Assembly: GCA_025360455.1 (NCBI GenBank)
Contig: JANYCF010000186.1
Span: forward strand, 1 to 37,029
DNA: 37,029 bases
Direction of reading: 5' to 3'
Source of the DNA: Opitutaceae bacterium
GTDB lineage: Bacteria > Verrucomicrobiota > Verrucomicrobiia > Opitutales > Opitutaceae
The translations under genes were made by a program, and so were the position numbers. The notes beneath the pieces are model-generated. The model saw only the letters and a list, made by a program, of their open reading frames with translations. It ran no database searches and was not told the DNA's origin. Positions 4,505 through 30,553 of this stretch are shown piece by piece; positions within the stretch are counted from its first letter, which is position 1, and every line of letters begins with the position of its first letter.

Positions 4505-6346
4505 ATGGCGTCCAACTATACTGAAGCCAGCATCAAGACCCTCAGCTCCCTCGAGCATATTCGCCTCCGCCCCGGCATGTACATCGGGCGGCTCGGCAAC
4601 GGCAACCACGCCGAGGACGGCATCTACGTCCTCCTCAAGGAAACCATCGATAACTCCATCGACGAATTCACGATGGGCGTCGGCAAAAAAATCGAGGTCG
4701 AGCTCACCGAGCGCACCCTCCGCGTCCGCGATTACGGCCGCGGCATCCCCCTCGGCAAACTCGTGGACTGCGTCTCCATCATCAACACCGGCGCGAAGTA
4801 CGATTCGGAAACTTTCCAAAAAGCCGTCGGCCTAAACGGCGTCGGCCAGAAAGCCGTCAATGCCCTCGCCCTCGCCTACCGCGCCCAGGCCTTCCGCGAC
4901 GGCGAAACCCGCGTCGCCGAATTCGAGAAGGGCAAACTCAAGAAGGAATCGAAAACCACCAAGACCGACGAACGCAACGGTACGCTCATCGAGTTCACCC
5001 CCGACGAAGCGCTCTTCGGCACCGACTTCAAGTTCCGCACCGAGTTCATCGAAGACATGTTGTGGAACTACGCCTTCCTCAACCGCGGCCTCACCCTCAC
5101 CTTCAACGGCAAGCCCTTCAAATCCGAACACGGCCTCAAGGATCTCCTCACCAAGGAGCTCGCCGGCGAGCCCCTCTACCCGATCATCCATCTGGAAGGT
5201 GAAGACATCGAAGTCGCCCTCACCCACGGCAACCACTACGGCGAAGAATATTGGTCCTTCGTCAACGGCCAGCACACCACCATGGGCGGCACCCACCTCG
5301 CCTCCTTCCGCGAGGCGCTCGTCGAGACCATCCGCAATCATTTCAAAAAAGACTACGAAGCCGCCGACGTCCGCCAATCCATCGACGCCGCCATCGTCGT
5401 CCGCGTGCAGGAACCGGTTTTCGAATCCCAGACCAAGACCAAACTCGGCTCCAGCGACATGGGTCCGAAAGGCCCGTCGATCAAGGAATTCATCGGCAAG
5501 TTCATGCAGCAGTCGCTCGACACCTACCTGCACAAGAACCGCGAGACCGCCGAGATCATCAAAAAGAAAATCGAGGAGAACGAGCACGAGCGCAAGGAAC
5601 TCGCCGGCATCCGCAACATCGCCCGCGAACGCGCCAAGAAAGCGTCCCTCCACAATCGCAAACTCCGCGACTGCCGCCTCCACCTCGGCGATCGCAACCC
5701 GCGCTCCGAGGAAAGCTCCCTCTTCATCGTCGAAGGCGATTCCGCCGCCGGCTCCCTCACCTCCACCCGCGACGTGCAGACCCAAGCCGTCTTCGCCTTG
5801 AAAGGCAAACCGCTCAACACTTACGGCCTCACGAAAAAAGTCATCTACGAGAATGAGGAGTTTCATCTCCTCCAATCCGCGCTGAACATCGAGGACGGAC
5901 TCGACGGCCTCCGCTACAACAAGATCATCATCGCCACCGACGCCGACGTCGACGGCATGCACATCCGCCTGTTGTTGCTCTCGTTCTTCCTGCAATTTTT
6001 TCCCGACGTTATCCGCAACAATCACCTCTTCATTCTCGAAACCCCGCTCTTCCGAGTGCGCAACAAGAAGAAGACGATGTATTGTTACTCCGAGCAGGAG
6101 AAGCAGCAGGCGATGGCCGAGCTCGGCACCACCCACGAGATCACGCGCTTCAAGGGGCTCGGTGAAATCTCCGCCGGAGAATTCAAAGATTTCATCGGTG
6201 AAAACATCCGGCTGGATCCTGTCAGCCTGAACCATCTCGCCAGCAGCGACGAGTTGCTCTCGTTCTTCATGGGCAAGAACACGCCCGAGCGCCAGGACTT
6301 CATCATCGACAACCTCCGCGTCGAGAAAGACCTGATCGAAGCCTGA
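4505..6346 (+). CDS. parE: DNA topoisomerase IV subunit B (type IIA topoisomerase ATPase/TOPRIM subunit)
   Basis: 613 aa; [39 protein letters not shown] (GHKL ATPase); EGDSAAGS and [14 protein letters not shown] (TOPRIM). Overall pattern matches the Bacteroidetes-type ParE. Confidence 0.93.
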
Positions 6347-6375
6347 GTCAGTCCGCACTCCGTGCTTTGCCTTAA

Positions 6376-6412
6376 AGTCCGGCGAGGCGTCCCGGCTGAG
6401 CCGCAGGGGCAT
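6376..6412. repeat. Degenerate copy of the GGCGAGGCGTCCC..GAGCCG palindromic element
   Basis: GGCGAGGCGTCCCGGCTGAGCCG resembles the reverse complement of the right arm of the element at 35111-35175. Confidence 0.5.
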
Positions 6413-6510
6413 ATCAAGTTTTTAGTTTTTCAATTACCAGCTGCTCGATTTCATAATCGCAGATCCCGTCCGAGCCAAACCGCACTCTCCCCCACTCGCA
6501 CCACACCACT

Positions 6511-7326: not shown

Positions 7327-9756
7327 TTATTTTGCAAGGCGTTCCCGCATCGTTCCGGGCGGCAACAATTCGATGGCCAGCTCTTGGAGTCTCGGATCGG
7401 ATATTTCCAGGCCGAATTTTTTGGCCAGCAATTGCAGACGGAACAACGCCGCCGTAGTGAGCGAGCGTAATCGGATTTCATCCAGTCCGAGCAGACAATA
7501 TTGCACCTGAGTGCGCGCGAGATCGAAACGTTTCCCATGCGCGAGCACGATCGCCAGATTGACGCGACGCTCCCACGGCAGGACGGCAGCAGACTCGGGA
7601 TTGAAATTCGTCAGCAAGATTTTGAAGATGCTGGCAAAATCTCCTTTTTCACCCAACCCCGCCTCGACCAACGCCAAGGCGGTCAGGGCGCCAAGATCGC
7701 CCGTGAAGCGTTGCAATCCGGAGCGTGTCGCGGTGGCCAGATCCATCTGTCCGGTTTCGACAAAATATTCCGCGAGCCGGCTGAAAGCGACGGAAGGCTC
7801 CTGCTCGTCCACCACCTCCAGCACCACCACCGACTGTTTTTCAAATCCCCCGATCGCCGGCAGTGTATACGGCACCGGTCGCAACCAGGACGGCAGTGCC
7901 CAGCGGTGCAGCGCGACCATGAAGGAATTTTCCGCGCGCAGTGACCCTCTCTGCGCATACTGGTCCAGCATCCGATCCCATGAGGGAATCACGAGATAGG
8001 CGATCCCCCGTCGTTGCACCAAGGCCTGCGCTTCCTCGGGAGAGGTCGCGCTGGCGAGCCTCACCGCCGCCGCCAGACCATCGTGATTCTCCCAGGAAAA
8101 CGTCCCCACTCCACGCAGACCGCCATGGTAAGCCAACGTAGCGGTCACATTGGGCGGCGCGTAAACCACCGCACCCGCCGTTCCGGCCCGTTGCGCCAGC
8201 CAAACCGCCAAGTCCCGTTCGACCAATCCCTCCACGTCCACTTCATCGAGTGATTCCTCCGCCTTTTCGCGATGTTCGGGAATAAGTTCAAACACCCCCA
8301 AAGCCACAACTGCGGCAAGGCTGACGGACCACAAGCTGCGATTGCGCCAGTTATTTTCCGACTCCGCTGCCGCACTCGCGGCTACCAGCATTACCAGCAA
8401 CACGCCATCACACATACTCCATCCACTAAGCTGAAAGCACGCCAAGCCCAGCGCCAGCAGTACAGGCCCGAGCGCCACCGCAATCGCGGCACCTAAGCGC
8501 GGAATCGTGCGCCGGCGAAACAATATAATCACTGCTGGCACGATCAACAGCACCGGAAGAGTGGTCGCCGCCACCAATCGCGTGAAACCATCCTGCATAA
8601 CCCACGCCGCTAAATTGGGCGCGGCGAAATCGCTCAGGCAGGTCAAGCGCGTGGCGAGCGGATTCACCGTGAACAGACCGCGGGAATCGAGTCGGACCAT
8701 GGCGAGTGGCACTGCGGCGACAGCCAACAGCGCAAGCCCCACCCTTATTTTATCGCGAATTTTCCAATTCGGTCTGCTCCCGTACAACCAGTCCACCGCC
8801 CGCGCGAGGAGCTCAGTGCCACCGAGCCAGGCGCCCGCATAAAGCGGATGATTCACCTCCAATTGCCACCCGAGGTGCGAAGGAAAATATTCCATCACAT
8901 ACGCCGCGAGGCTCATCGCGGCACCACCCCAACCCCATGCGCGCCACGGCGGCACGCCCAGCGCCGCAACCGTCGGATTCATCTTCGATTCTTTCCGGGC
9001 CAACGCGGCGGAGAGGAGCGCGCCCAACCCAATACCCAGCAAAAGGGGAATCTGGCTGGAGGCATTGATCCAAAAGCCCAATCCGCCCATCTGCCCGGCG
9101 AGAAAAAACCAACGGCGTTGCCGCGAACGGAAATTGTTCGCCACCGCCGTCTTCGCCCCAAAAGCAGCGAGCAGGAGCAGCATGCTTTCGAGCGCACAGA
9201 TCCAAGCGAAGCCATGATGATCCGGTGCCCCGGGCAGAAATCCTCCCGCCAACGGGAAAATCGTCACGAGTCCGACGGCCAGCAGCACAGACGGAAAGAT
9301 CCCGAATTGCCAGGCCGTGAAAACCACCACTGCAACCAAACTCAACAAGTGCAGCAAAGGATCACCATAGAGCGCCGCCTGCTCCACCGAAAGCGCGAGC
9401 GAATGCCCAAAAACCGTTTGAGCGCAGCGCGCCATCAGTCCCAGCCACCACCGGTAAGGGGCCGGAGCATGCGTGACGCGACCCAGTGGCGCATTATCAT
9501 AATCGACTTGGCGCATACGCCACTCACCCCGCTCCAGCATCAGCCGGGTTTGCATGAGCCACTGGTAACTTTCGTTATTATGTTGCGGCACAATCAACCG
9601 CGATCGCCCGCTCGTGACCGCCGTTGACCATCCTGGCAAAGCCGAGACTTCTTCCACCCGGTGCAGCCGGGCAAGGTCCACCCAGATCAAAAATCCCAGC
9701 GCGCAAAGCGGGACAATAACCCAGATCGAAGCCAATCGCTGACGGAAAAATCTCAT
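7327..9756 (-). CDS. GT-C fold membrane protein, STT3/PglB-like, with TPR-like C-terminus
   Basis: 809 aa; multiple TM segments, N-terminal loop RQVDYDNAPLGRVTHAPAPYRWWLG, second motif PGAPDHHGFAW (STT3-like DHH), soluble C-terminal helical repeats. Confidence 0.7.
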   Translation of the reverse strand: MRFFRQRLASIWVIVPLCALGFLIWVDLARLHRVEEVSALPGWSTAVTSGRSRLIVPQHNNESYQWLMQTRLMLERGEWRMRQVDYDNAPLGRVTHAPAPYRWWLGLMARCAQTVFGHSLALSVEQAALYGDPLLHLLSLVAVVVFTAWQFGIFPSVLLAVGLVTIFPLAGGFLPGAPDHHGFAWICALESMLLLLAAFGAKTAVANNFRSRQRRWFFLAGQMGGLGFWINASSQIPLLLGIGLGALLSAALARKESKMNPTVAALGVPPWRAWGWGGAAMSLAAYVMEYFPSHLGWQLEVNHPLYAGAWLGGTELLARAVDWLYGSRPNWKIRDKIRVGLALLAVAAVPLAMVRLDSRGLFTVNPLATRLTCLSDFAAPNLAAWVMQDGFTRLVAATTLPVLLIVPAVIILFRRRTIPRLGAAIAVALGPVLLALGLACFQLSGWSMCDGVLLVMLVAASAAAESENNWRNRSLWSVSLAAVVALGVFELIPEHREKAEESLDEVDVEGLVERDLAVWLAQRAGTAGAVVYAPPNVTATLAYHGGLRGVGTFSWENHDGLAAAVRLASATSPEEAQALVQRRGIAYLVIPSWDRMLDQYAQRGSLRAENSFMVALHRWALPSWLRPVPYTLPAIGGFEKQSVVVLEVVDEQEPSVAFSRLAEYFVETGQMDLATATRSGLQRFTGDLGALTALALVEAGLGEKGDFASIFKILLTNFNPESAAVLPWERRVNLAIVLAHGKRFDLARTQVQYCLLGLDEIRLRSLTTAALFRLQLLAKKFGLEISDPRLQELAIELLPPGTMRERLAK

Positions 9757-9880
9757 GCAAAACGCAGTGTTGTTTTCATGGCAAACACCGACCGGCGGAT
9801 GCTCACAGGAAAAGGGGGTGCGGCAAGCAAAGTCAGAGGGAAAACACCGTTTTTTGCCCGGCCGAACCTTGACTCCGGAT

Positions 9881-9896
9881 CGGAATATTTATTCCG
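9881..9896. promoter_or_regulatory. Palindrome CGGAATA-tt-TATTCCG upstream of the FG-GAP/UnbV gene
   Basis: 7-bp perfect arms, 12 bp before ATG at 9908, followed by TTTTTT. Confidence 0.5.
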
Positions 9897-9907
9897 TTTT
9901 TTGCTTC

Positions 9908-12900
9908 ATGTTAGCCGCCACCACGACTCCGCGCCCGCTTGCCCAGGGGATCGCTCCGCTCCTCGTTCGCGGCCTGAGGCAAACGGGAATTTTTCTGGCC
10001 GGAATCACGGCCTTGGCCGCAGCCCCGACCGAACTCTTGACCGACGCGCCCCTCGCCCCTCGCTCCGGTCCGCGTGGTGCCACCCTGTTCACCGAACTGC
10101 TGCCGTCGCAAACCGGCGTGATCACGGAAAACAATTACGCCGACCCGGCGATGTGGTGGGAACGTTATCATGAATTTGAAGTCGGCGCGATCGGCACCGG
10201 CATCGCCATCGGGGATTACGACGGCGACAGCCGGCCCGACATTTATGTGGTGAGCAAGACGGAGAACGGCCGTCTGTTTCGCAATCTCGGCAATTGGAAA
10301 TTTGAAGAGGTCACGGCCCAGGCCGGACTGGGCGGAGCCGGCGGCACTTGGCAACAGGGCCTCGCTTGGGCCAAACGGTTGACGAAACAAACGACCGGAA
10401 CGGAAGACGCACCGGGAATTTGGAAACAAGGCGCGACCTGGGTGGATGTGAACAATGACGGCCGGCTTGATCTCTATGTGTGCCGGTTCGGTGCACCGAA
10501 TTTACTTTATATCAACCAAGGCGACGGCAGGTTCAAAGAAGAAGCGGCGGCGCGAGGACTCGCCTTAAACAGCGCGAGCGGCATGGCGGCCTTTTGCGAC
10601 TACGATCGCGACGGCTGGCTCGATGTCTATATCCAGACGAACCTGCTCGATGCGAACACGCATCCGAACGGTGAACGCGACCGCCTCTACCACAACAATC
10701 GCGACGGCACTTTCAGCGAGGTGACCGACCAAGCCGGAATTTCCGGCATGACGCAGGGCCACTCGGCCACCTGGTGGGATTATGATAACGACGGTTGGCC
10801 GGATCTCTATGTGGCCAATGATTTCGCGACGCCGGACCAGCTGTATCACAACAACCGCGACGGCACCTTCACCAACCGGATCGATCAGGTGGTGCCGCAC
10901 ACGCCTTTTTCTTCCATGGGCGCTGATCTCGGAGACGTGGACAACGACGGACGGCTCGATCTGCTCGTCGCCGACATGGCCGCCTCTTCCCACGAAAAAG
11001 ATCAGCGCGGCATGGCCGAATCCCGTTCACGCAACCGCTCCGAGCCGGCTGATTCCACCACGGCACCGCAATATACCCGCAGCGCACTCTACCTGAACAC
11101 CGGCACCGAGCACTGCCTGGAAGCCGCGCACCTCACCGGCCTCGACGCAACCGACTGGACTTGGTCCGTACGTTTCGAGGATCTCGACAACGACGGCCGG
11201 CTCGATCTGCACCTCACCAATGGAATGTTTCGCGAGCCGCACAACGTGGATCTGCTCGACAGTGTGATGAGCGCGGAAACTCCGGCCGAGCGAATCAAAC
11301 TCATCCGCTCCAGTCCGGTTTTTGCCGAAACCCATTTTGCGTTCCGCAATCTCGGCGATCTGCACTTTGAGAACTGCGCCCACGCCTGGGGACTCGATCA
11401 AACCGGCGTCAGCTTTGGCGCCGCCTTCGGCGACTTCGATGGCGACGGTGATCTCGATCTGGTGTATGCCAACTATCAGGGCGGCGTGACGCTATTGCGC
11501 AATGACAGTGATTCCGGCCATCGCATCACTCTCGGTTTACGCGGCACCGTTTCCAACCGCTTCGGAGTCGGGGCCACGATCCGGATAGAAAGCGAGTCGG
11601 GCGTTCAGGTCCGCCAGCTCGTGCTGGCGCGCGGCTATCTTTCCAGCAGCGAACCCATGGTGCACTTCGGGCTGGGCAACGATGCCATCATCCAACGCCT
11701 GACGGTCACCTGGCCCAGCGGTCACGTGCAAGAATTTGCCCACCTGCCCGTCGACCGCCACTTCACCATTACAGAACCATCGGCGGTGATCGCACTCCCG
11801 GCTCAAAGCGCGTCTCCTGCGTTTGGGCAATTTTCAGAAATCAGCCAAAGCTCCGGACTGTCACTCCTCTCCCGCGAAACGGTGGTGGATGAAAACGTGC
11901 AACAACCCTTGCTCCCGATTCGCCACAACCGGAACGGTCCGGGCCTCGCCATCGGGGATTTCAACGGCGATGGCGCCGACGATATTTGGATCGGCGGAAC
12001 CGCCGCCAACCCTGCGCGCATCCAGCTGAACACGGGAATCGGAAAATTCGAATCCATACTTCACCTGCCGCCAACGCTCGCTCCCGCCGTCAACGACGGC
12101 CCCGCCTTGGTTTTGGATTTCAACGGCGACGGGGCCAATGATTTGCTGATCACGAAAGGCGGGGCGAGTCGGCCGGCCAATGATTCCGGTTATCAACCCG
12201 AACTCTTGCTCAACGATGGGCATGGGCTGCTGCAACGGGCACCGGCTGGAAGTCTTCCGGCGCTGACCATGAGTGCCGGCACCCTCACCGCCGCCGATTT
12301 CAATCGCGACGGCCAGCTCGATATTTTCATCGGCGCTCGGCTGATCCCCGGAAAATATCCCGCCGCGCCGCGCAGCGCTTTGCTCGTCAATCACGGCGGA
12401 CGTTTCGAAGACGTGACGGATTCCCTCGCGCCCGGATTGCGCACCGTCGGGCTGGTGACGTCCGCCTTGTGGAGCGACGTCGATACGGACGGCTGGCCCG
12501 ACCTCATGCTCACACTGGAATGGGGCCAAGTGAAATATTTCCACAACAATCTCGGCCGGGGATTTTCCGACTGGACGGAGCAGGCCGGCTTCGCCGCTGC
12601 CGGCACCGGCTGGTGGACGTCTCTCGCGACGGCCGATTTTAATGGCGATGGCCGGCCCGACTTTGTCGCGGGTAACGCCGGCTTGAACACTCCCTATCAC
12701 GCGAGTCCGACGGAGCCGGCGTTGCTCTACGCCGGGGACTTCAAGGATGGCGGCGCACCGCAGCTAATCGAAGCGTATCACGAGGGCGAAAAGATTTTTC
12801 CATGGCGCACCCGGAAGGATCTCAGTCAGGCCGTCGGATCGTTGCGCAAACGCTTTCCCAAAAATAACGATTACGCCAAAGCCACCCTCGGTGAATTAGT

Positions 12901-13603
12901 GGGCGAAGCCCGCCTCGCCGCCGCCCAACGGTTCGCCGCCACGGAATTTCGCAGTGGCGTTTTTCTCAGCCAAGCCGACGGATGCTACCGCTTCGAAGCG
13001 CTCCCGCCGTTGGTGCAAATCGCCCCGATGCAAGGCGTGGTCGCCGGCGATTTCGACGGCGATGGCTATGCCGATATCTATGCTGTGCAAAATTCTTACG
13101 CGCCTATTCCCAGCATCGGCCGGTTTGACGGCGGACTGAGCCAGCTGCTGCGCGGCGATGGGCACGGACATTTCACCCCGGTGCCCCTGACGGAAAGTGG
13201 ACTCCTCGTGCCGGGTGACGCGAAGGCGCTGGGGGTATTCGATTTGAATCAAGACGGCTGGCCCGATTTTTTTGTCACACGCAACAACGACACCACTCTG
13301 GCTTTTCAAAACCGCGGGGTGGCCGGACGGCATTCCCTGCGAGTCCTGTTGCATGGGCCGGCCGGCAATCCGACGGGAGTCGGCGCACAAATCACACTAG
13401 AACTCTCCCACGGCTTATGGCAGACCAGCGAAGTTCAAGCGGGTTCAGGTTTTTCCAGCCAGTCTGCCGCCGCGTGTTTTTTTGGCTGGCCGGAAAATAA
13501 TCCTCCTCGCCACATCAGGGTCCGTTGGCCATCAGGCACCATCACCCAACATGAAGTGTCGCTGACGGCGACCACCTTGGTTTTGTCCTGTCAGGATCAT
13601 TGA
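9908..13603 (+). CDS. Secreted FG-GAP/VCBS repeat protein with two ASPIC/UnbV (CRTAC1-like) domains
   Basis: Repeated DxDGDGxxD motifs (GDYDGDSRPDIYV, FCDYDRDGWLDVYI, GDFDGDGDLDLVY and others) and two UnbV segments ending TVTWPSGHVQEF and RVRWPSGTITQHEV. ATG 9908 (MLAATTTPRPLAQ...) is more plausible than 9755. Confidence 0.9.
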   Translation: MLAATTTPRPLAQGIAPLLVRGLRQTGIFLAGITALAAAPTELLTDAPLAPRSGPRGATLFTELLPSQTGVITENNYADPAMWWERYHEFEVGAIGTGIAIGDYDGDSRPDIYVVSKTENGRLFRNLGNWKFEEVTAQAGLGGAGGTWQQGLAWAKRLTKQTTGTEDAPGIWKQGATWVDVNNDGRLDLYVCRFGAPNLLYINQGDGRFKEEAAARGLALNSASGMAAFCDYDRDGWLDVYIQTNLLDANTHPNGERDRLYHNNRDGTFSEVTDQAGISGMTQGHSATWWDYDNDGWPDLYVANDFATPDQLYHNNRDGTFTNRIDQVVPHTPFSSMGADLGDVDNDGRLDLLVADMAASSHEKDQRGMAESRSRNRSEPADSTTAPQYTRSALYLNTGTEHCLEAAHLTGLDATDWTWSVRFEDLDNDGRLDLHLTNGMFREPHNVDLLDSVMSAETPAERIKLIRSSPVFAETHFAFRNLGDLHFENCAHAWGLDQTGVSFGAAFGDFDGDGDLDLVYANYQGGVTLLRNDSDSGHRITLGLRGTVSNRFGVGATIRIESESGVQVRQLVLARGYLSSSEPMVHFGLGNDAIIQRLTVTWPSGHVQEFAHLPVDRHFTITEPSAVIALPAQSASPAFGQFSEISQSSGLSLLSRETVVDENVQQPLLPIRHNRNGPGLAIGDFNGDGADDIWIGGTAANPARIQLNTGIGKFESILHLPPTLAPAVNDGPALVLDFNGDGANDLLITKGGASRPANDSGYQPELLLNDGHGLLQRAPAGSLPALTMSAGTLTAADFNRDGQLDIFIGARLIPGKYPAAPRSALLVNHGGRFEDVTDSLAPGLRTVGLVTSALWSDVDTDGWPDLMLTLEWGQVKYFHNNLGRGFSDWTEQAGFAAAGTGWWTSLATADFNGDGRPDFVAGNAGLNTPYHASPTEPALLYAGDFKDGGAPQLIEAYHEGEKIFPWRTRKDLSQAVGSLRKRFPKNNDYAKATLGELVGEARLAAAQRFAATEFRSGVFLSQADGCYRFEALPPLVQIAPMQGVVAGDFDGDGYADIYAVQNSYAPIPSIGRFDGGLSQLLRGDGHGHFTPVPLTESGLLVPGDAKALGVFDLNQDGWPDFFVTRNNDTTLAFQNRGVAGRHSLRVLLHGPAGNPTGVGAQITLELSHGLWQTSEVQAGSGFSSQSAAACFFGWPENNPPRHIRVRWPSGTITQHEVSLTATTLVLSCQDH

Positions 13604-13812: not shown

Positions 13813-16800
13813 TTAGAATTCAAACGTATTGCTGAGCGACCAACCCATGCCGTCTTGGATACGGTAGTGGGCAATGGCGCCGTTCGGTTGAATCGCGATA
13901 GGAACCAGCTTGTTCTTCGCAAAGGCGTTGTTCACGTTAAGCTGGATCCGCCAGTTAACATTTTGATACGATAGTTTGCGGCTATAACCGATCCAAAGAT
14001 CGATTTGCTGGCTGCCTGGCCCGGTGATGGGCTTGGTCACATCGTATTCCACCAAATCCTTGGGCAGTACGCCCGGAATTTGCTTCAACTGGTAACCAAG
14101 GACCGACTTGTCTTCCCAGCGGTAGCTGCCGCCAATGAAGGAACCTTTCAAGATCCCCTGATCAAAGGAGTAGGTATTCACGACATTGAAGCGCCAAGGA
14201 CGAAGCTCGGGAGCCGAGGTGTTTTCCTGGGCTTTCAACAAGGTGTACTTGGAATAGAATTCATTCCAGACATCATGGACCGTGTAGTTGGAACCTGCCC
14301 ACCAGAGCCGGATGTCGCCCGCCGGACCGGTATAGACCGGATTGCGCAGCTCCACCCATTTGGCAAGAGCACCGCCGACATTGAAGCGGGTTCCCGTCAC
14401 CTTCGCGGCATTGGCCGTGATACGCCAATTTTTGGTGGGCTGAGCGGTCAGTTCGAATTCGTAACCTTCCGACATCGTGTCACCGGTGGCGGTTAATCCG
14501 ACAGGAGCGCTGGCGCCCAATCCATTCCGGTAGGCCGTCGGGCTGGTGTTGGCGATACTCCACGCATTGTAGAATTTATCACCCGCGTAATTAGCATACC
14601 ACGCAGTCAAAGCGGCCTGCTTGGAAGCTTCACGAGCGGCGTTACCCGCCGCATCGGTGCCGAAGTTGTCTTTGCCGTTGCCCTGGCCATTATTCCAATT
14701 CCACTGCCAGTCGGCACCATAGCCGTCGCGGTAGTAACCCGCGAATTGCGTTCCCCAAGCCTCGACGTTACCGAGCTTATAGATATCATCAATGCCAACG
14801 GTGGCGTCTTTCGAAACGGTTTTAAACTTAGTGATCTTGAAGGATAATTTGTCGTTCAACGTTTCAATCAGAATACCAAAATCCTTGGTTTTGCCGGTAG
14901 GCGGGGCCAAAGCATCGCCGAGAACATCTACCCGTTGGGTATCTGGTTCGAAATTCTGGGACTGGCTGTAAAATACCGAGATACCGGTATTGCCCGGCAT
15001 ACGCCGGCGCAGTTCCGGGGGAGTATGCACCACCAAGCTGTACGTTCTGCTGATACCTTTAAAAACAACCGGCGTAGTCGGCAGCACATACAAGGGATCA
15101 CGAACATTGATCACATCGCTGAGATTATTCTTCGCCCCTTGTTTGGTGTACTGTTTCTGGGTGTCTTCGCGCCAGCCGAACATCGGCACGATATTGCCAT
15201 CCCACAGGAAGGACTGGAGGACCATGGCCTTGGTCGAGATCTTGTTCTTCTGTTTGTAGCCGGCCTTGGTGAGCTGATCCTTGTCGCCATTATCGACGCT
15301 CAACACTTTCGCATCATAAGTCGTCCAGCCGACATAGTTGGCCGGATTTTCTGCCTGGAAGGAATAATCCGTGCTCGTGCTGCCGACTTTCCAATTGCCG
15401 GCCCAGGGCGCATCGGGTGCCGGAGCCGTACCCCATTTATAATGGGAATCGAAGTACAAAATCTTCCCGTCCTGCGGCATCATGACCACGGAAGGAGCCT
15501 GAATATTCAAGCCGACCGCTGAAGCGCGGCCGCTGAGATCCCCGGTGAGATAGACCACGTTGTTCGGCTGACGGGCATTGTCGGTGACTTTGGTCACGCC
15601 GATCTGATTGGCATAACCCTGATCATAGATATAGCGGATGTACTCACGGTGATCGATCTTGGATTCATCGCTCGCGAGTACGCCCGTGAAGGTGTGCCGG
15701 CCGAGAATCCGCGCGAGGGTGGATTTACCCAGCACATCTTCAAATCTGAATTCACCAAACATGGTGAGACGCAAATTATCCCGCTCAATCCAGTTTTCAT
15801 TATTCCCCCAGTTCGGATCACTTTGGATATACGCCCGACCGATATTGGGATTGGCTTGGTAGACATTTACGCCACCCGCGGTGGTGCCCTCGTCGCTGAT
15901 ATAGCCGCCGCGGTCATTCAGATTCAGGTCGACGCCGATGCCTTGATTGGCCCAGATGAGCTGGCCTTCATTGTACTTCTGGTGATTTTGCACCAACTCA
16001 AATCCGAGACGGTTGTCGAAAAACGTCTGGCTGAGGTTGATATTGAAAGTATCCCAATTCTGCCATTCGTGTTTATTCGGACCATCGAGACTTTGTTTAT
16101 AGTAATTAAAGATCGAGGTATCGGTGATGGAGTTATCCTTGTAATCACCCGTTTTATAACCGGGCAGCTGATTGGAATAGGCCCAGCCATTGTAACCGGA
16201 GACGCCCATGGGACGGGCAAAGCCCAGAGCTTCGATGCCGCCATCGGTCGCACCCACATTGCCGGCTTTGCCCGAGATGCCGAAATTCGTCTTCCGCTCG
16301 GGAATGCGCGAAATCGCATCGGGCACCGAATCAGTACTGCCGTTGAAAATCACGAAAGGCCCGCCGAGCGCATTGCCGAAGCCGCCCAACCAAGAGTTAA
16401 ACGCCGCTCCGCTCGAAGTCTGCGCCTGCCCGATGTAATTATCCAAGTAGTACTGCCGGTTAGGATAACCGACCGGCAACGTAGCCGAAGCGCTGGTGAG
16501 CGTATTCCACGCTCCTTCGCTATCGACCTTAAGCTTGTTCAGCTGGCTCGGATTGAACCAAGGAGTGATCTTGTCATCCGGGGGCAGCACGTGTGGGCGG
16601 TTGGCCTTGATCTTGCCGTGCTCATAGTTGAACTTCAACTCGGTGCGATTGCCATTTTTTGCCAGAAATTTTGGCGCATAACGGAAAGCACCGAAGTAGC
16701 GCCGATCATCCTGGAACGTGGGCTTCTGCTGCCAATGTTTGTTTTCGTTCATGAAGTCGAAACGAACGGAGAGTTCACCCTTCAACAACACGCGGTTGAT

Positions 16801-17442
16801 GTTCAACTGTTCCCGCTTGCTGTTATACTTGCTGATCGTCAGCTCGACCTTGGTCGAATCCTTAAACGAGGCGATATTGGTGGTGACGTTCACAATGCCG
16901 GCCGGCTTGCCGAGACCGAACAAAATGGAATTCGGCCCGCGCTGAAGGTCCACGCGATCCACATTATAACTGTCCCAAGGAATTTCCGTGACGAAAAAGT
17001 CACGGGTATTGGCGGCGGCACCGAGACCGCGCACGCGCGTCGAGCTGTCCGGGCGCAGGAGCGAACCGGTGTCATCCAAACCGCCGCCGTATCCGGTGCC
17101 GGCAAAATTTCCGTTTACGCCGCCGACTTCCGTACCGACGGTGTATTTCAGCAGGTCCTGATTATTCTTCGCACCCGTATCCTGCAGGAATTGGGAGGTG
17201 ATAACCGAGAGCGCTGTACCGACGTCGCGCAGATTTGTTTTAATACGCGTACCGGCCAGCGTATTGGTGGCCGAGTAGCCGGAATCTTCCGTGGGATCGA
17301 CCAGAAAAGGCGACAAGACGAGAACGTCGTCCTGCTCATTTTTCGGGGTAGCGGGTTTGGCAACTTCCTGGCCGTGTGATAACGGACCGGAAGCCAGTGC
17401 GGTCGCAAGCAATGCGCCCGCCAATAGATATCTGTTCTTCAT
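13813..17442 (-). CDS. TonB-dependent outer-membrane receptor
   Basis: 1209 aa; signal peptide, plug motifs RIKTNLRDVGTALSVITSQFLQDTGAKNNQDLL, RVRGLGAA.TRDFFVTEIP.DSYNVDRVDLQRGPNSILFGLGKPAGIVNVTT, and C-terminal aromatic NTFEF. Confidence 0.93.
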   Translation of the reverse strand: MKNRYLLAGALLATALASGPLSHGQEVAKPATPKNEQDDVLVLSPFLVDPTEDSGYSATNTLAGTRIKTNLRDVGTALSVITSQFLQDTGAKNNQDLLKYTVGTEVGGVNGNFAGTGYGGGLDDTGSLLRPDSSTRVRGLGAAANTRDFFVTEIPWDSYNVDRVDLQRGPNSILFGLGKPAGIVNVTTNIASFKDSTKVELTISKYNSKREQLNINRVLLKGELSVRFDFMNENKHWQQKPTFQDDRRYFGAFRYAPKFLAKNGNRTELKFNYEHGKIKANRPHVLPPDDKITPWFNPSQLNKLKVDSEGAWNTLTSASATLPVGYPNRQYYLDNYIGQAQTSSGAAFNSWLGGFGNALGGPFVIFNGSTDSVPDAISRIPERKTNFGISGKAGNVGATDGGIEALGFARPMGVSGYNGWAYSNQLPGYKTGDYKDNSITDTSIFNYYKQSLDGPNKHEWQNWDTFNINLSQTFFDNRLGFELVQNHQKYNEGQLIWANQGIGVDLNLNDRGGYISDEGTTAGGVNVYQANPNIGRAYIQSDPNWGNNENWIERDNLRLTMFGEFRFEDVLGKSTLARILGRHTFTGVLASDESKIDHREYIRYIYDQGYANQIGVTKVTDNARQPNNVVYLTGDLSGRASAVGLNIQAPSVVMMPQDGKILYFDSHYKWGTAPAPDAPWAGNWKVGSTSTDYSFQAENPANYVGWTTYDAKVLSVDNGDKDQLTKAGYKQKNKISTKAMVLQSFLWDGNIVPMFGWREDTQKQYTKQGAKNNLSDVINVRDPLYVLPTTPVVFKGISRTYSLVVHTPPELRRRMPGNTGISVFYSQSQNFEPDTQRVDVLGDALAPPTGKTKDFGILIETLNDKLSFKITKFKTVSKDATVGIDDIYKLGNVEAWGTQFAGYYRDGYGADWQWNWNNGQGNGKDNFGTDAAGNAAREASKQAALTAWYANYAGDKFYNAWSIANTSPTAYRNGLGASAPVGLTATGDTMSEGYEFELTAQPTKNWRITANAAKVTGTRFNVGGALAKWVELRNPVYTGPAGDIRLWWAGSNYTVHDVWNEFYSKYTLLKAQENTSAPELRPWRFNVVNTYSFDQGILKGSFIGGSYRWEDKSVLGYQLKQIPGVLPKDLVEYDVTKPITGPGSQQIDLWIGYSRKLSYQNVNWRIQLNVNNAFAKNKLVPIAIQPNGAIAHYRIQDGMGWSLSNTFEF

Positions 17443-17462: not shown

Positions 17463-17476
17463 TTCAAACGACTGAA
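17463..17476 (-). promoter_or_regulatory. Putative operator TTCAGTCGTTTGAA upstream of the TonB receptor
   Basis: CpG-centred palindrome 21 bp upstream of ATG 17442; matches the motif at 18961-18974 and 23249-23262. Confidence 0.5.
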
Positions 17477-17578
17477 ATAAAACAGCCGTGAGCTCTTTTC
17501 TGGGAGCACAGGAGCCACTCTAGTGTAACGCCCCGAACTTGAGTATGTGTTCGCCGGCCAAAAAAATTGAGAATGGTT

Positions 17579-18817
17579 TCAGCTCGCTGAAACCGCGTAC
17601 AACGGCTGCCGCACCACGGGCAGCGACATGCTTTGCTCGCCATCGCAAACTTGCACTGAGCGCAGGCTCTTGCGGAATTTACCCGGCGTCTCCCCCACCA
17701 GCCGCTTGAACAAAACACACATGTACTCCACGTATTCAAAACCCGTGAGATCAGCGATGTCCTTCAGCGGTTTGTCCGTATGCTGCAACAAGCGTTTGAT
17801 TTCCGTCAGCTGCACCCGTCGAATTTCCGCCTGGGGCGACCGGCCGATATATTTCCGAAAGCCTCGCTCCAGATCGTGGCGCGACACGGACACCCGGTGC
17901 ACCACTTCCTCTACCGTGACGCCCCGGCACGCCTGCTCCCGAATAAAACTCAAGGCCGCCACCATCCGCCGATCAGCAATCGCGAGCGTGTCCGTGGATT
18001 GACGGGTGACGACCCCCGACGGCGCCACCAACATTTGTTCAGGCCCCAGCGACTGGCCGGCCATCACCTGCGCCAATCTTTCCGCCGCCAGATAGCCCGC
18101 CGCAGAGGCATCAAGCGCGATGCTGGAGAGCAAGGGTTGGGACATTTCACAACTCGCCCGATCATCATTCACTCCTAGTACCGCCAGGTCTTCCGGCACG
18201 GAAATTTCGCAAAGTCGGGCGGCCGCCAGAACCTGCACGGCCAGTTGATCATGACAGGCCAGCAGGGCGAGAGGCTTCGGCTGTTTTTCCAACCACGCGG
18301 CAATCAGCTGCACTTGGCGCGTATCCCAATCCGGCGAGTAACGCTGCGGACTCACGGTTTCCATCACGGAACAGGTCTGCCTCAGCAAGGCCAACCCCTC
18401 GATAAAACCATCGCGCCGTTCCGTCGACCACAGTTCGTTCGAGAAACCACAATAGGCAAAATGACAATGCCCGCGCTCGGCCAGATCTTCCGCGGCCATG
18501 TGGCCCACTGCCACATTGTCGGGCCGGACTTGCGGTATGCCCGCGAACGCCAAGCCGTCAGTCAGATCCACCAAAGGCACCTTTTGCTCCAAACAGGTTT
18601 TAACCAGACTTGGCGTCGTGTGCGCACAAATGACTCCATCCCATTTCTCTTCCCACAAATTTTCCGAACGACATTCAAAACCAGTGTCATCATCCACAAA
18701 CACGGACCATCGCGCATGCAATCGTTGGTACTTCGCGATCCCTTGCAGCATGGCAGCCGTATCCGCCGAGGGACGGCGAAATACCAGCAGCACACGTAGC
18801 TTTTCGATCAACGACAT
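17579..18817 (-). CDS. XylR-type AraC-family transcriptional regulator with LacI-like sensor domain
   Basis: Start MSLIEKLRVLLVFRRPSADTAAMLQG (ATG 18817); periplasmic-binding-like sensor (LALLACHDQLAVQVLAAARLCEISVPEDLAVLGVNDD) and C-terminal AraC HTH (EVVHRVSVSRHDLERGFRKYIGRSPQAEIRRVQLTEIKRLLQHTDKPLKDIADLTGFEYVEYMCVLFKRLVGETPGKFRK). Confidence 0.92.
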   Translation of the reverse strand: MSLIEKLRVLLVFRRPSADTAAMLQGIAKYQRLHARWSVFVDDDTGFECRSENLWEEKWDGVICAHTTPSLVKTCLEQKVPLVDLTDGLAFAGIPQVRPDNVAVGHMAAEDLAERGHCHFAYCGFSNELWSTERRDGFIEGLALLRQTCSVMETVSPQRYSPDWDTRQVQLIAAWLEKQPKPLALLACHDQLAVQVLAAARLCEISVPEDLAVLGVNDDRASCEMSQPLLSSIALDASAAGYLAAERLAQVMAGQSLGPEQMLVAPSGVVTRQSTDTLAIADRRMVAALSFIREQACRGVTVEEVVHRVSVSRHDLERGFRKYIGRSPQAEIRRVQLTEIKRLLQHTDKPLKDIADLTGFEYVEYMCVLFKRLVGETPGKFRKSLRSVQVCDGEQSMSLPVVRQPLYAVSAS

Positions 18818-18960
18818 GGGAATAACAAATAGGCAGATACCGGAATAAAAGCAGACGAAACGGAAATAGGGTGACGGTTGAGGGAACCAACGGACGAAGT
18901 GTAAGGAGGAGAACAAGCCCAGTTAATCCAACCCCCGCGTGCGACGAAAGCATGCCTTCA

Positions 18961-18974
18961 TTCACTCGTTAGAA
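18961..18974. promoter_or_regulatory. Putative operator TTCACTCGTTAGAA in the divergent regulator intergenic region
   Basis: Matches the TonB-receptor upstream site at 12 of 14 positions; a weaker copy TTCACTCAATAGAT lies at 19067-19080. Confidence 0.5.
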
Positions 18975-19131
18975 AATAACAACCATCCCACGCCGTACTC
19001 CCCGCCCGGACAGTAAAGCCCTAGCTGCTCCGGTCTTCTGCGTGGAAGAGGCCGCCGTCCCCATCATTCACTCAATAGATTTCTTGCCTCCACCCGATAC
19101 GGCTGCTCCGGTGCCGTCTGACGGAATCCGC

Positions 19132-20172
19132 ATGTTCACCCAAGCAACCATCAAAGATGTGGCGCGCGCCGCCGGAGTTCACTTCACCACGGTCTCGATG
19201 GCCCTACGGGGTCATCCGGCGGTCGCAAAGCGTACGCGCCAGCAGATCGAGGCCGTCGCCAAACAAATCGGATACCAGCGCAATGCGATGTTCGCCTCTC
19301 TCAGTCGACAGCGAAAAGACTCCGTGTTCCCGTCTGTGATTCCCAGCCTGCTCTATCTGGGCCGCGCCAGAAATGATCGGCATTTTTTTGCCATGCCGCA
19401 TCACCAGCAAATGGTCGCCGGTGCGACCCGCGAGGCCAAGGCGCTCGGTTACCAACTCACGGTTAAACTGGTCGGCCCCACCGGAATCAAACCCGAAAAC
19501 TTATCCGCCTACCTCGCGCGCTCCCCGGCGGCGGGGGTAGTCATCGGAGCTTGGGATGCCACCTTGGCGGTTCCCGTGGTGGACTGGACCCGCATGCCCA
19601 CCATCAAGATCGATTCCAGTCATGTCCCCGCGAAAGTCCCTTTTGTTTCGAATGATCAGATGAAAGGCGTGCTTCACGCCTTTCGCCAACTGCACGCGCG
19701 CGGTTACCGCCGCATCGGGCTCGCGACCGGAGAAAAAGACGAAGATGCGACCGATGGCATGCATGTCTCCGGCTGGCTCACGGCCCACCACGAATATCCC
19801 CGCCTGCGCAAAATCCCGATTTTGTTTTTTCCGCCCGGAATTAATTTCCCCACCACCACCCGCTTGATCAACGCCTGGCGTGACGCGCATCACCTCGATG
19901 CGATCATAAGCAACTGGGGCTCCATTCCGCTGATCTTGCAGCAGCACCCGCGGCCAGCCAGGCAAGCGACCGGCTTTGTGGGTTTGTGCTGCGACCTGCA
20001 TGAGCCTCAGATCACCGGCATCGTCCCGAATCTAGATCTGGTCGGACAACGGGCGGTCTCACTCCTCGGCAGCATCATCAATGCGCCCACCGATCTGAAT
20101 CCCACCACTCCACTCATCAGTTACGTTGAAGGTACTTGGCATGACGGTTCCTCCATCCAACGCAAAAAATAA
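19132..20172 (+). CDS. LacI-family transcriptional regulator
   Basis: N-terminal HTH TIKDVARAAGVHFTTVSMALRGHPAVAKRTRQQIEAVAKQIGYQRN; C-terminal ligand-binding domain. ATG 19132 gives the canonical short N-terminus. Confidence 0.9.
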   Translation: MFTQATIKDVARAAGVHFTTVSMALRGHPAVAKRTRQQIEAVAKQIGYQRNAMFASLSRQRKDSVFPSVIPSLLYLGRARNDRHFFAMPHHQQMVAGATREAKALGYQLTVKLVGPTGIKPENLSAYLARSPAAGVVIGAWDATLAVPVVDWTRMPTIKIDSSHVPAKVPFVSNDQMKGVLHAFRQLHARGYRRIGLATGEKDEDATDGMHVSGWLTAHHEYPRLRKIPILFFPPGINFPTTTRLINAWRDAHHLDAIISNWGSIPLILQQHPRPARQATGFVGLCCDLHEPQITGIVPNLDLVGQRAVSLLGSIINAPTDLNPTTPLISYVEGTWHDGSSIQRKK

Positions 20173-21211
20173 CAGGCAACCGGTTTCCCGTCCAACGATG
20201 CGTGATGTCGCCCGTCTGGCCGGCGCTATCCATCCCTCCACCGTTTCTCTCGCCCTGCGGAACAGCCCGAATATTTCGCCGGCCACGCGGGCGAAAATCC
20301 AGGCGGTGGCGAAACGGATCGGCTACCGCCGCGACCCGCTGCTCGATGCCTTCAATCAGCACCGGCTCAAAAATATTCCCCAGCGCTCCTCCCGTCATAT
20401 CGTCGCCCTCTCGGATTTTTCCTCGGCGGAAGAACTCGCTCGCTCGCCCCATCACGCCGCCGCACACACCGGGGCGATGGAGACCGCCGCGCGCCTGCAT
20501 TGTCAGCTCGATTTCTTTTTTTTCGGGCCGGGCCAGCCCAGTTCCAAGCGGCTCGACGCCGTCCTCCATGCCCGCGGCATTCACGCGCTGCTCCTCTTCG
20601 GCGTTAAAGCCGATTCCAGCGCCTTGGCCTTCACCTGGTCACGCACCTGCACGGTGGCCATTGATTCGCTCCAGCTGACGACTCCGCTCTACCACCTCAC
20701 CCCCGATTACCGCGAGGCTACCCGTCTGCTTTGGCGTCACGCCTGGGCCCAGGGCAGCCGCCGCATCGCCATGATACGAACCAGCACCCAGCCGACTAAT
20801 GCCGAACAACGCGCGCTGGCCGGTTTCATGCTCGAGCAGTTTCGCCAGCCCCAAGCCACGGTCATTCCCTTTTTCCAGCACACCCAGGAACGGGGCAACC
20901 CTGCGCGTTTCAAAACCTGGCTGCACCTGCATCGCCCCGAAGTCATCATCCACCCGGCGTGCCTCGCGCCCTTCCTCACGCCATTACTCGCGAATGGGAA
21001 CCTCCGCTGTTTGGCCTATGATGCGTCACATCCCGATGAACCGGGAATAGTACCCGACTACCGCGAAGTCGGACGCCGCGCCGTCGAGCAACTCATGACG
21101 CTCATGCAAACCAACCAGCTTGGCCTGCCCCCAACCACCACCTGCACCTACGTCGCTGTGAATTTGCCGGTGGAAGAAAAGTCCCAAAAACAACTCACCG
21201 TTTCGGCGTGA
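20141..21211 (+). CDS. LacI-family transcriptional regulator (second, tandem)
   Basis: HTH TMRDVARLAGAIHPSTVSLALRNSPNISPATRAKIQAVAKRIGYRRD. Starts inside the 3' end of the preceding LacI gene, consistent with translational coupling. Confidence 0.9.
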   Translation: MTVPPSNAKNNRQPVSRPTMRDVARLAGAIHPSTVSLALRNSPNISPATRAKIQAVAKRIGYRRDPLLDAFNQHRLKNIPQRSSRHIVALSDFSSAEELARSPHHAAAHTGAMETAARLHCQLDFFFFGPGQPSSKRLDAVLHARGIHALLLFGVKADSSALAFTWSRTCTVAIDSLQLTTPLYHLTPDYREATRLLWRHAWAQGSRRIAMIRTSTQPTNAEQRALAGFMLEQFRQPQATVIPFFQHTQERGNPARFKTWLHLHRPEVIIHPACLAPFLTPLLANGNLRCLAYDASHPDEPGIVPDYREVGRRAVEQLMTLMQTNQLGLPPTTTCTYVAVNLPVEEKSQKQLTVSA

Positions 21212-23186
21212 GCCGGGCGCAGAAGCCACCTTTGGCCGCAAGGTCGATCACGGGTTTGTCGCCTGAACCTACGGTCAACCTAGTGGGTGCATCGGGGAAC
21301 TTATGCTGGCTCGGGCCGTCGGTGATAAATTCGGCATCGTAGCTGCCGGTGCCGAGGAAGCCGAGCGGCACCGTGATTTTTTTCGCCGTAGCTTCGCCGT
21401 TAAGACAGGCGAGGTACCAATTGTCGCCTTTGCGGCGGGCGAGGAGCACGAGTTCGCCGGGAGCGCCATCGAGGTAGCGGGTATCATCCCAGGTGACCGG
21501 CACGTGTTTCAGAAAATTCTGCACGTAGTCGGGCTGGCTGCGGTAGGCCGAGACGCTGTCCACGAAGTGCTGCACGCCGCTCTCGAAGGCGACAGAGAGG
21601 GCGAGTTCATGACCGTTGGTGGTCTGATGACGTTCGAGTTCGGGAGCATCGCCAAAAATCACGGGCGTGTAATCCATCGAGCCAACAACATTGCGGGTGT
21701 AGGCGTAGATGGTGTGGTAGGTGTGAGCGTTCGCGGCGAAGACGGGATCCCAATATTGCTCGGCGCCGCGAATGCCTTCCTGCGAGAGCAGATTGGGATA
21801 GGTGCGGGCCCAGCCGCGCGGAGTAGTGGCACCGTGGAAATCCACGAAAAGATGTTCGGCGGCGGCATCACGCAGGATGTCCACATAGAGCTGCATCACG
21901 TACTGTTGGTCGCTCTGCATGAAGTCGACCTTGACGCCCTTGATACCCCATTGGGCGAGCTTGGCGAATTCCTTGCAACGCACGTCGGGTTTATCCATCA
22001 GGTCTCGCAGGCCGAACATGATTTTATTATGCGGACCGCCGGAGTTGTACCAAAGAATCAGGCCAACTTTCTTCTTGGCGGCGTAGGCGAAGAGTTCGGT
22101 GCGGTCGGTTTCGGGGATGTTTTCCCAACCGCCGTCCACGAGCGAGTATTCCCAGCCGTAGTCTGCGGAGAGATCGATAAAGGGAATGATGCGGTTGCGA
22201 TCCGACGGGCTGCCCTTGTCGCTCCACCAGCTCCACGAGACGCGGCCGGCTTTGAGCCAGGAAGTGTCGCCGATGGCGTTCGGGGCGCTGAGGTGAGTGA
22301 CGACGTTGGTCTCAATGATGGTGGCGAGAGTGGGGCCGATCACGATGATGCGCCAAGGCGATTGCCAGGGCGTGGTGATCTTGGCCGCGCGGCCCGCGAC
22401 TCCGTTGGTTTCCCATTCCTCGGGCAGGCGGATGCGATAGAGACCGTCCGTGGCCTGCCCTTCCAGGTGAGCTCCGTAGCAGGTGCCGTCGAGACCGGCT
22501 TCGGTGAGCAAAACCCAGCGGCGCGCGGCGTGAAAAAGCGCCGGAAAGGCCCAGCCGGATTTGCTGTCGGACGTGGTGCCGAGAGCGATTTTATTTTGCC
22601 AAATCGCTTCGTAGGCCGGAGCCCAGATGGCCTGTTCGTCGTAATGCATCATCCAGGCGTCGCCTTTGGCGGGCAGTTTGAAACCCGTCGATTCACCCGA
22701 GACGAGGACCTGACCGGTGGCACCGGAGGGAAATCCGTAGCGAAATGCGACGCTGTCCGGCATGACCTGCACCGTCAGCGTGAACGGCTGACCGGCGGCA
22801 TTTTGAAAAGTGAAGGCTTGCTCGACCGCTTGGTGACGAAGCGCCAGACGTTTGCCGGCGACAAGGGTGTAGCTCTCGTCGATTGAGTGCGGGGCGGCAG
22901 CCGAGATGAATTTCAAGCCGGTGGTGAAATCGCCATCCGAACGGGTGAGACCGAGCGGTGAAGGCCCGATCAGTTCGAAGGCGGGTTGGCCGGGCGCAGC
23001 ATCAATAACCGCATAACTGAGCTGGCCCTCGTCGAGGGTCCAAGTGTAGCGCAGCGGACTAAGGTCGCCAGAGACGGATTGGGTGAGCGGAGCGGCACCT
23101 AAGCCGGCAGTGAACAGCAGAGAAATGATGAGACCAATCAGGTGACGAAGAATTGAACGCGAGTCGTGGGCGAACGGAGTAATCAT
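21195..23186 (-). CDS. GH97 family glycoside hydrolase (alpha-galactosidase/alpha-glucosidase type)
   Basis: WSWWSDKGSPSD, YSLVDGGW, LILWYNSGG, WGIKGVKVDFMQSDQQYVMQLYVDILRDAAAEHLFVDFHGATTPRGWARTYPNLLSQEGIRGAEQYWD. Likely start ATG 23186, giving a signal peptide; 23210 and 23237 are alternatives. Confidence 0.92.
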   Translation of the reverse strand: MITPFAHDSRSILRHLIGLIISLLFTAGLGAAPLTQSVSGDLSPLRYTWTLDEGQLSYAVIDAAPGQPAFELIGPSPLGLTRSDGDFTTGLKFISAAAPHSIDESYTLVAGKRLALRHQAVEQAFTFQNAAGQPFTLTVQVMPDSVAFRYGFPSGATGQVLVSGESTGFKLPAKGDAWMMHYDEQAIWAPAYEAIWQNKIALGTTSDSKSGWAFPALFHAARRWVLLTEAGLDGTCYGAHLEGQATDGLYRIRLPEEWETNGVAGRAAKITTPWQSPWRIIVIGPTLATIIETNVVTHLSAPNAIGDTSWLKAGRVSWSWWSDKGSPSDRNRIIPFIDLSADYGWEYSLVDGGWENIPETDRTELFAYAAKKKVGLILWYNSGGPHNKIMFGLRDLMDKPDVRCKEFAKLAQWGIKGVKVDFMQSDQQYVMQLYVDILRDAAAEHLFVDFHGATTPRGWARTYPNLLSQEGIRGAEQYWDPVFAANAHTYHTIYAYTRNVVGSMDYTPVIFGDAPELERHQTTNGHELALSVAFESGVQHFVDSVSAYRSQPDYVQNFLKHVPVTWDDTRYLDGAPGELVLLARRKGDNWYLACLNGEATAKKITVPLGFLGTGSYDAEFITDGPSQHKFPDAPTRLTVGSGDKPVIDLAAKGGFCARLTPKR

Positions 23187-23248
23187 GGGAATAGCGAGTG
23201 GGTCGCTCATCGATATAAAGGCGTTGTGGGCGTGCAATCGCGGCCTGA

Positions 23249-23262
23249 TTCACTCGTTTGGG
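23249..23262. promoter_or_regulatory. Putative operator TTCACTCGTTTGGG upstream of GH97
   Basis: Shares TTCACTCGTT exactly with the site at 18961; 62 bp upstream of ATG 23186. Confidence 0.45.
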
Positions 23263-30535: not shown

Positions 30536-30553
30536 TTTTCGCCCGTTTGAATC

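Follow-up and report, generated by a model that had tools for sequence, protein, structure and literature searches.

In Escherichia coli, two LacI-family paralogues, GalR and GalS, act on one operator set; their genes do not form an overlapping pair, and their operators are regarded as symmetric. Even, CG-centred palindromes and frequent autoregulation are described in a survey of LacI regulons (PMC4052901). The locus described here lies in a 37,029 bp stretch of DNA from an Opitutaceae bacterium (JANYCF010000186.1, referred to as the window), and shares with the local LacI/GalR-family sugar regulons of that survey a CpG-centred, partly inverted repeat, a LacI helix-turn-helix (HTH) joined to a sugar-binding domain, and sites placed before the regulator's own gene and before neighbouring uptake and hydrolase genes. 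It differs from them in that two overlapping LacI genes are always present, that the operator is asymmetric throughout the clade of the window, and that the conserved core is about 14 bp rather than 16–22; the text of the survey makes no mention of Verrucomicrobia or TonB. The likeness to GalR/GalS lies in the two LacI-family proteins, and the difference in the overlap of the LacI1 and LacI2 genes and in the asymmetry of the operator. The nearest solved structures by sequence are CcpA, PurR and LacI, with low similarity that is strongest in the DNA-binding domain, and no NCBIfam equivalog cut-off is reached. In the body of literature searched, no relevant work turned up on LacI heterodimers or on LacI operators of Opitutaceae.

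The genome holding the window consists of 405 contigs with a total of 4.85 Mb. LacI1 and LacI2 are arranged in tandem, with the GH97 gene convergent to LacI2 (Table 1). The LacI HTH (PF00356) is above cut-off in both proteins, while the sugar-binding effector domain is above cut-off in LacI1 (Peripla_BP_1) and appears in LacI2 as a weak Peripla_BP_3 match only. The ATG of LacI2 lies 32 nt ahead of the end of LacI1. The GH97 protein matches a retaining alpha-galactosidase model with a score below the cut-off of that model, and the named relatives of the XylR-like protein come from uncultured Opitutaceae. Two genomes encode large FG-GAP/ASPIC-UnbV proteins close to the LacI pair (9755-13603 in the window and L168:9682-13001). 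All four 14-mers of the original prediction are found at the coordinates given there.

Table 1. Predicted operator sites, genes and promoter-like block of the locus, in window coordinates
Feature	Position	Strand	Sequence or domain	Context
Operator site A (predicted)	17463..17476	+	TTCAAACGACTGAA on +, TTCAGTCGTTTGAA on -	20 bp upstream of TonB-receptor ATG
Operator site B (predicted)	18961..18974	-	TTCTAACGAGTGAA on -, TTCACTCGTTAGAA on +	Divergent XylR-like // LacI1 intergenic region
B2, weak candidate, doubtful	19067..19080	-	ATCTATTGAGTGAA on -
GH97 candidate operator	23249..23262	-	CCCAAACGAGTGAA on - (GH97 coding strand)	62 bp before GH97 ATG
TonB-dependent receptor	13813..17442	-	Pfam Plug 9.7e-08	Proposed target of site A
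XylR-like regulator	17579..18817	-	Sugar-binding domain and AraC-type HTH; Pfam Peripla_BP_3, HTH_18	Probable site B target
LacI1	19132..20172	+	Pfam LacI 8.6e-14, Peripla_BP_1 1.3e-08	Most likely operator reader
LacI2	20141..21211	+	Pfam LacI 9.2e-11	Proposed LacI1 partner
GH97 glycoside hydrolase	21195..23186	-	Pfam GH97_N, GH97, GH97_C	Proposed target
Promoter-like block	19084..19113	+	TTGCCT-N17-TCCGGTG	In front of LacI1

Comparison with relatives indicates that the 14-mer is very probably the operator of LacI1, a member of an Opitutaceae-wide subfamily in which a LacI2 gene always accompanies LacI1, nearly always with overlapping frames. Exact TTCASTCGTTWGAA occurs twice in the 4.85 Mb genome, at sites A and B, 1.5 kb apart, a uniqueness that is partly circular because the pattern was derived from these two sites; since it was made from sites of the window, evidence from other species is needed. 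Among 252 Opitutaceae genomes, 27 LacI1 homologues were found at E<=1e-50, with the window and two LacI2-type second members excluded, and a class-wide search showed that close homologues are confined to the family. The two closest (L100 and L101) have 63% identity, belong to another genus and keep the XylR//LacI1-LacI2 order. In L100, exact TTCACTCGTTAGAA is found between XylR and LacI1, at another distance from the genes and in surrounding DNA that is largely unalignable, and in L101 the near-identical TTCTAACGAGTGTA lies upstream of GH97, with no site before the TonB receptor of that locus; conservation in orthologous loci, on which the prediction had been staked, is thus borne out. MAFFT alignment of the intergenic regions leaves the sites unaligned because their distances from the genes differ. 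The more distant homologues have CTCTAACGAATGAG-like words beside LacI1. In L100 (about 5980-6455), the XylR gene ends abruptly against PurK-type ATP-grasp-like sequence, a possible assembly chimera.

The motif is also recovered without reference to the window. Word discovery was applied to the upstream regions of 15 LacI1 homologues having the helix type of the window (HFTT), with the window excluded and with composition-corrected scores, as an uncorrected palindrome-restricted search was dominated by GC-rich words. It returned CTCTAACGTATGAA in 9 of the 15 regions, with a log10 p of -9.5 as compared with -4.1 in the best of five shuffled sets. When matrices were scored with one genome left out at a time, 12 of the 15 LacI1 upstream regions reached p<0.05 and three had no convincing site; the combined Fisher p of 2.7e-14 is to be read with the shared ancestry of these relatives in mind, which are not phylogenetically independent. 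The slot after LacI2, unused in training, holds 13 matches of at least 13 bits in 13.5 kb, compared with 12 in the 292 kb making up the rest of the same loci. Twelve genomes were chosen for contrast: the six that hold the closest LacI1 homologues contain 12 copies of the strict consensus YTCWAACGANTGAR, and the six others contain none, although one of these (G029) encodes a distant homologue of LacI1 accompanied by a variant site; the reversed control has two matches across all twelve. A third strict-consensus match in the genome of the window, TTCAAACGATTGAA (G000:C362:3715-3728, L005), lies where a sugar-isomerase-like (AP_endonuc_2) gene meets a gene for an MFS transporter and may be due to chance.

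The genes adjoining the operators in relatives represent the make-up of local carbohydrate regulons. TonB receptors are found directly after LacI2 in L152 and L160 and across from LacI1 in L104, and other neighbours include GH31 (L150), an MFS sugar transporter (L170), a GlcNAc-2-epimerase-type enzyme (L159), GH130 (L139) and the GH97 of L101. As in the described regulons, sites are thus placed both before the regulator's own gene, in 12 of 15 relatives, and before the TonB receptor and other sugar genes. Comparative evidence supports the claim that a cluster-specific, CpG-centred LacI-type operator is common to the regulators, GH97 and the TonB receptor. Several sister-clade loci (L152:8667-8701, L162, L163, L158) have a tandem pair of near-perfect operators immediately behind LacI2, spaced by 20-21 bp and, where a TonB receptor is annotated, lying before it; this spacing equals two helical turns and suggests cooperative or tetrameric binding.

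The sites in the window are not equally strong. With a matrix built from other species only, the scores in bits are 18.7 for A, 19.8 for B, 14.2 for B2 and 13.6 for the GH97 site, where 0.013 matches at >=18.5 bits and 0.78 at >=13.5 bits are expected per 37 kb. When each site was compared with shuffled versions of the intergenic region that holds it, A and B reached p=0.001, the floor of the test, and the GH97 site p=0.025; the latter is weak but supported as a candidate. The description of the sites as near-palindromes holds in part: agreement with the reverse complement is 8-10 of 14 letters at A and B and 6 of 14 at B2 and the GH97 site. B2 has no counterpart in either ortholog locus and shares some of its letters with the 5' end of the separately conserved block at 19084-19113, and for these reasons it is doubtful and, although present, probably does not belong to the set. 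The spacing within this block is unchanged in each of the two close orthologs, making three species in all, and the block occurs once in the window where 0.01 occurrences are expected. It resembles a promoter without a TATAAT-like -10; a sigma-70 and terminator scan of the region gave nothing. A further word, TTCAAACGGGCGAA at 30538-30551 (12.4 bits, local p=0.011), stands directly before a xylose-isomerase-like TIM-barrel gene and is probably a chance match.

A LacI2 homologue lies directly downstream on the same strand in all 27 LacI1 homologues, and of the 26 relatives in which its start could be located, 25 have an in-frame LacI2 ATG 4-59 nt before the end of LacI1, a conserved overlap suggesting coupled translation. 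Operators in the clade of the window consistently have the lopsided form YTCWAAC|GANTGAR, with halves YTCWAAC and YTCANTC; the central CG and the outer TC/GA are kept, and the inner half-site positions are asymmetric in this clade and symmetric in the sister clade, where perfect palindromes such as CTCTAACGTTAGAG occur. At positions 4-6 the half-sites differ more within an operator than between operators (2.15 versus 1.70, P 0.002; P 0.004-0.006 with strong sites alone) in the clade of the window, and in the sister clade they do not (P 0.22). The recognition helices of LacI1 and LacI2 match in the sister clade (HITT/HVTT) and differ in the clade of the window (HFTT/HPST). Helix likeness correlates with operator symmetry over 21 loci (Spearman 0.76) and within the clade of the window alone (0.76, permutation p 0.01), and all these half-site and helix p values are optimistic because the loci share ancestry. 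In LacI2 of the window's group (20199-20400 in the window, and L100-L104, L150), the HTH has one extra residue (GAIHPSTVS, GGVHPSTVS), and Phe replaces Leu at the hinge position which enters the central CpG in LacI.

That operator asymmetry tracks the helix difference suggests, without proving, that LacI1 and LacI2 form a heterodimer in which one protein would read the half YTCWAAC and the other YTCANTC, in either assignment. This reading is a refinement of the LacI1-operator explanation and not an alternative to it, and is put forward tentatively. It would account for the invariable presence of LacI2 with a conserved frame overlap, for half-sites that differ more within than between operators, and for the pairing of matching helices with near-perfect palindromes and of differing helices with lopsided operators. 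On the other hand, the known assemblies of LacI-family proteins are homodimers, single or paired into dimers, and the correlation is drawn from about 20 loci of shared ancestry. The more general proposal, that an obligate LacI1-LacI2 heterodimer with an asymmetric operator, whose symmetry co-evolves with helix divergence, is a widespread unit in Opitutaceae, may hold but is, if anything, more speculative.

The XylR-like AraC-type regulator is a very improbable reader of the sites, even though its gene lies between A and B and is a neighbour of LacI1 in both of the closest orthologous loci. The motif co-occurs with LacI1 homologues only. Around 30 XylR-homologue loci (150 kb) gave just two matches at >=13 bits and none at >=15, a lack of enrichment on which this candidate was rejected; a contig search with the XylR-like protein returned only distant paralogues, which are without the motif. 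LacI1 pairs that were found through LacI1 alone, in other gene settings, still carry it. In addition, usual AraC-type sites are direct repeats, unlike CG-centred near-palindromes. LacI2-like loci without LacI1 gave no match at >=13 bits in 46 kb. The idea that one of the three local regulators reads the sites is thereby narrowed to LacI1, probably together with LacI2. What the computation shows is that the sites exist, that they are conserved and that they go with LacI1 and not with XylR.

Genome-wide occurrence was assessed by pattern searches. With up to three mismatches the window has seven matches where 6.5 are expected, and with up to two mismatches the genome has 71 (34+37), compared with 76 (44+32) for the reversed control. 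It was proposed at the outset that the motif should not hit random DNA at the same rate; loose matches do so, and strong ones do not. Since loose matches occur at the chance rate, the sites represent a local operator, and a genome-wide (global) regulon was rejected for lack of enrichment. That the likeness among the sites is itself accidental, as the frequency of loose matches in window and genome might imply, is extremely unlikely, because relatives yield the motif independently and one ortholog retains it letter for letter, which contradicts this reading for A and B, though chance may account for B2.

On the preferred reading, in which LacI1 reads the 14-mer, the regulator would be bound while the sugar signal is absent and would repress the TonB receptor through site A, the divergent XylR//LacI1-LacI2 region, including LacI1's own promoter, through site B, and GH97 through the site at 23249. 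Oligosaccharide uptake would then lead the regulator to release its targets. From sequence, we infer the binding itself, repression rather than activation and the heterodimer, together with a ligand which, judging from GH97, is perhaps an alpha-galactoside or alpha-glucoside.

The analysis provides a predicted operator and its probable reader for a regulator subfamily in the sugar-uptake loci of Verrucomicrobiota, a phylum with few mapped regulons, and ties TonB receptors and hydrolases to their putative switches by sequence alone. If the heterodimer is real, nature would provide in it an example of partner-dependent LacI proteins, and LacI-DNA recognition could be tested on the way in which helices and half-sites have changed in parallel.
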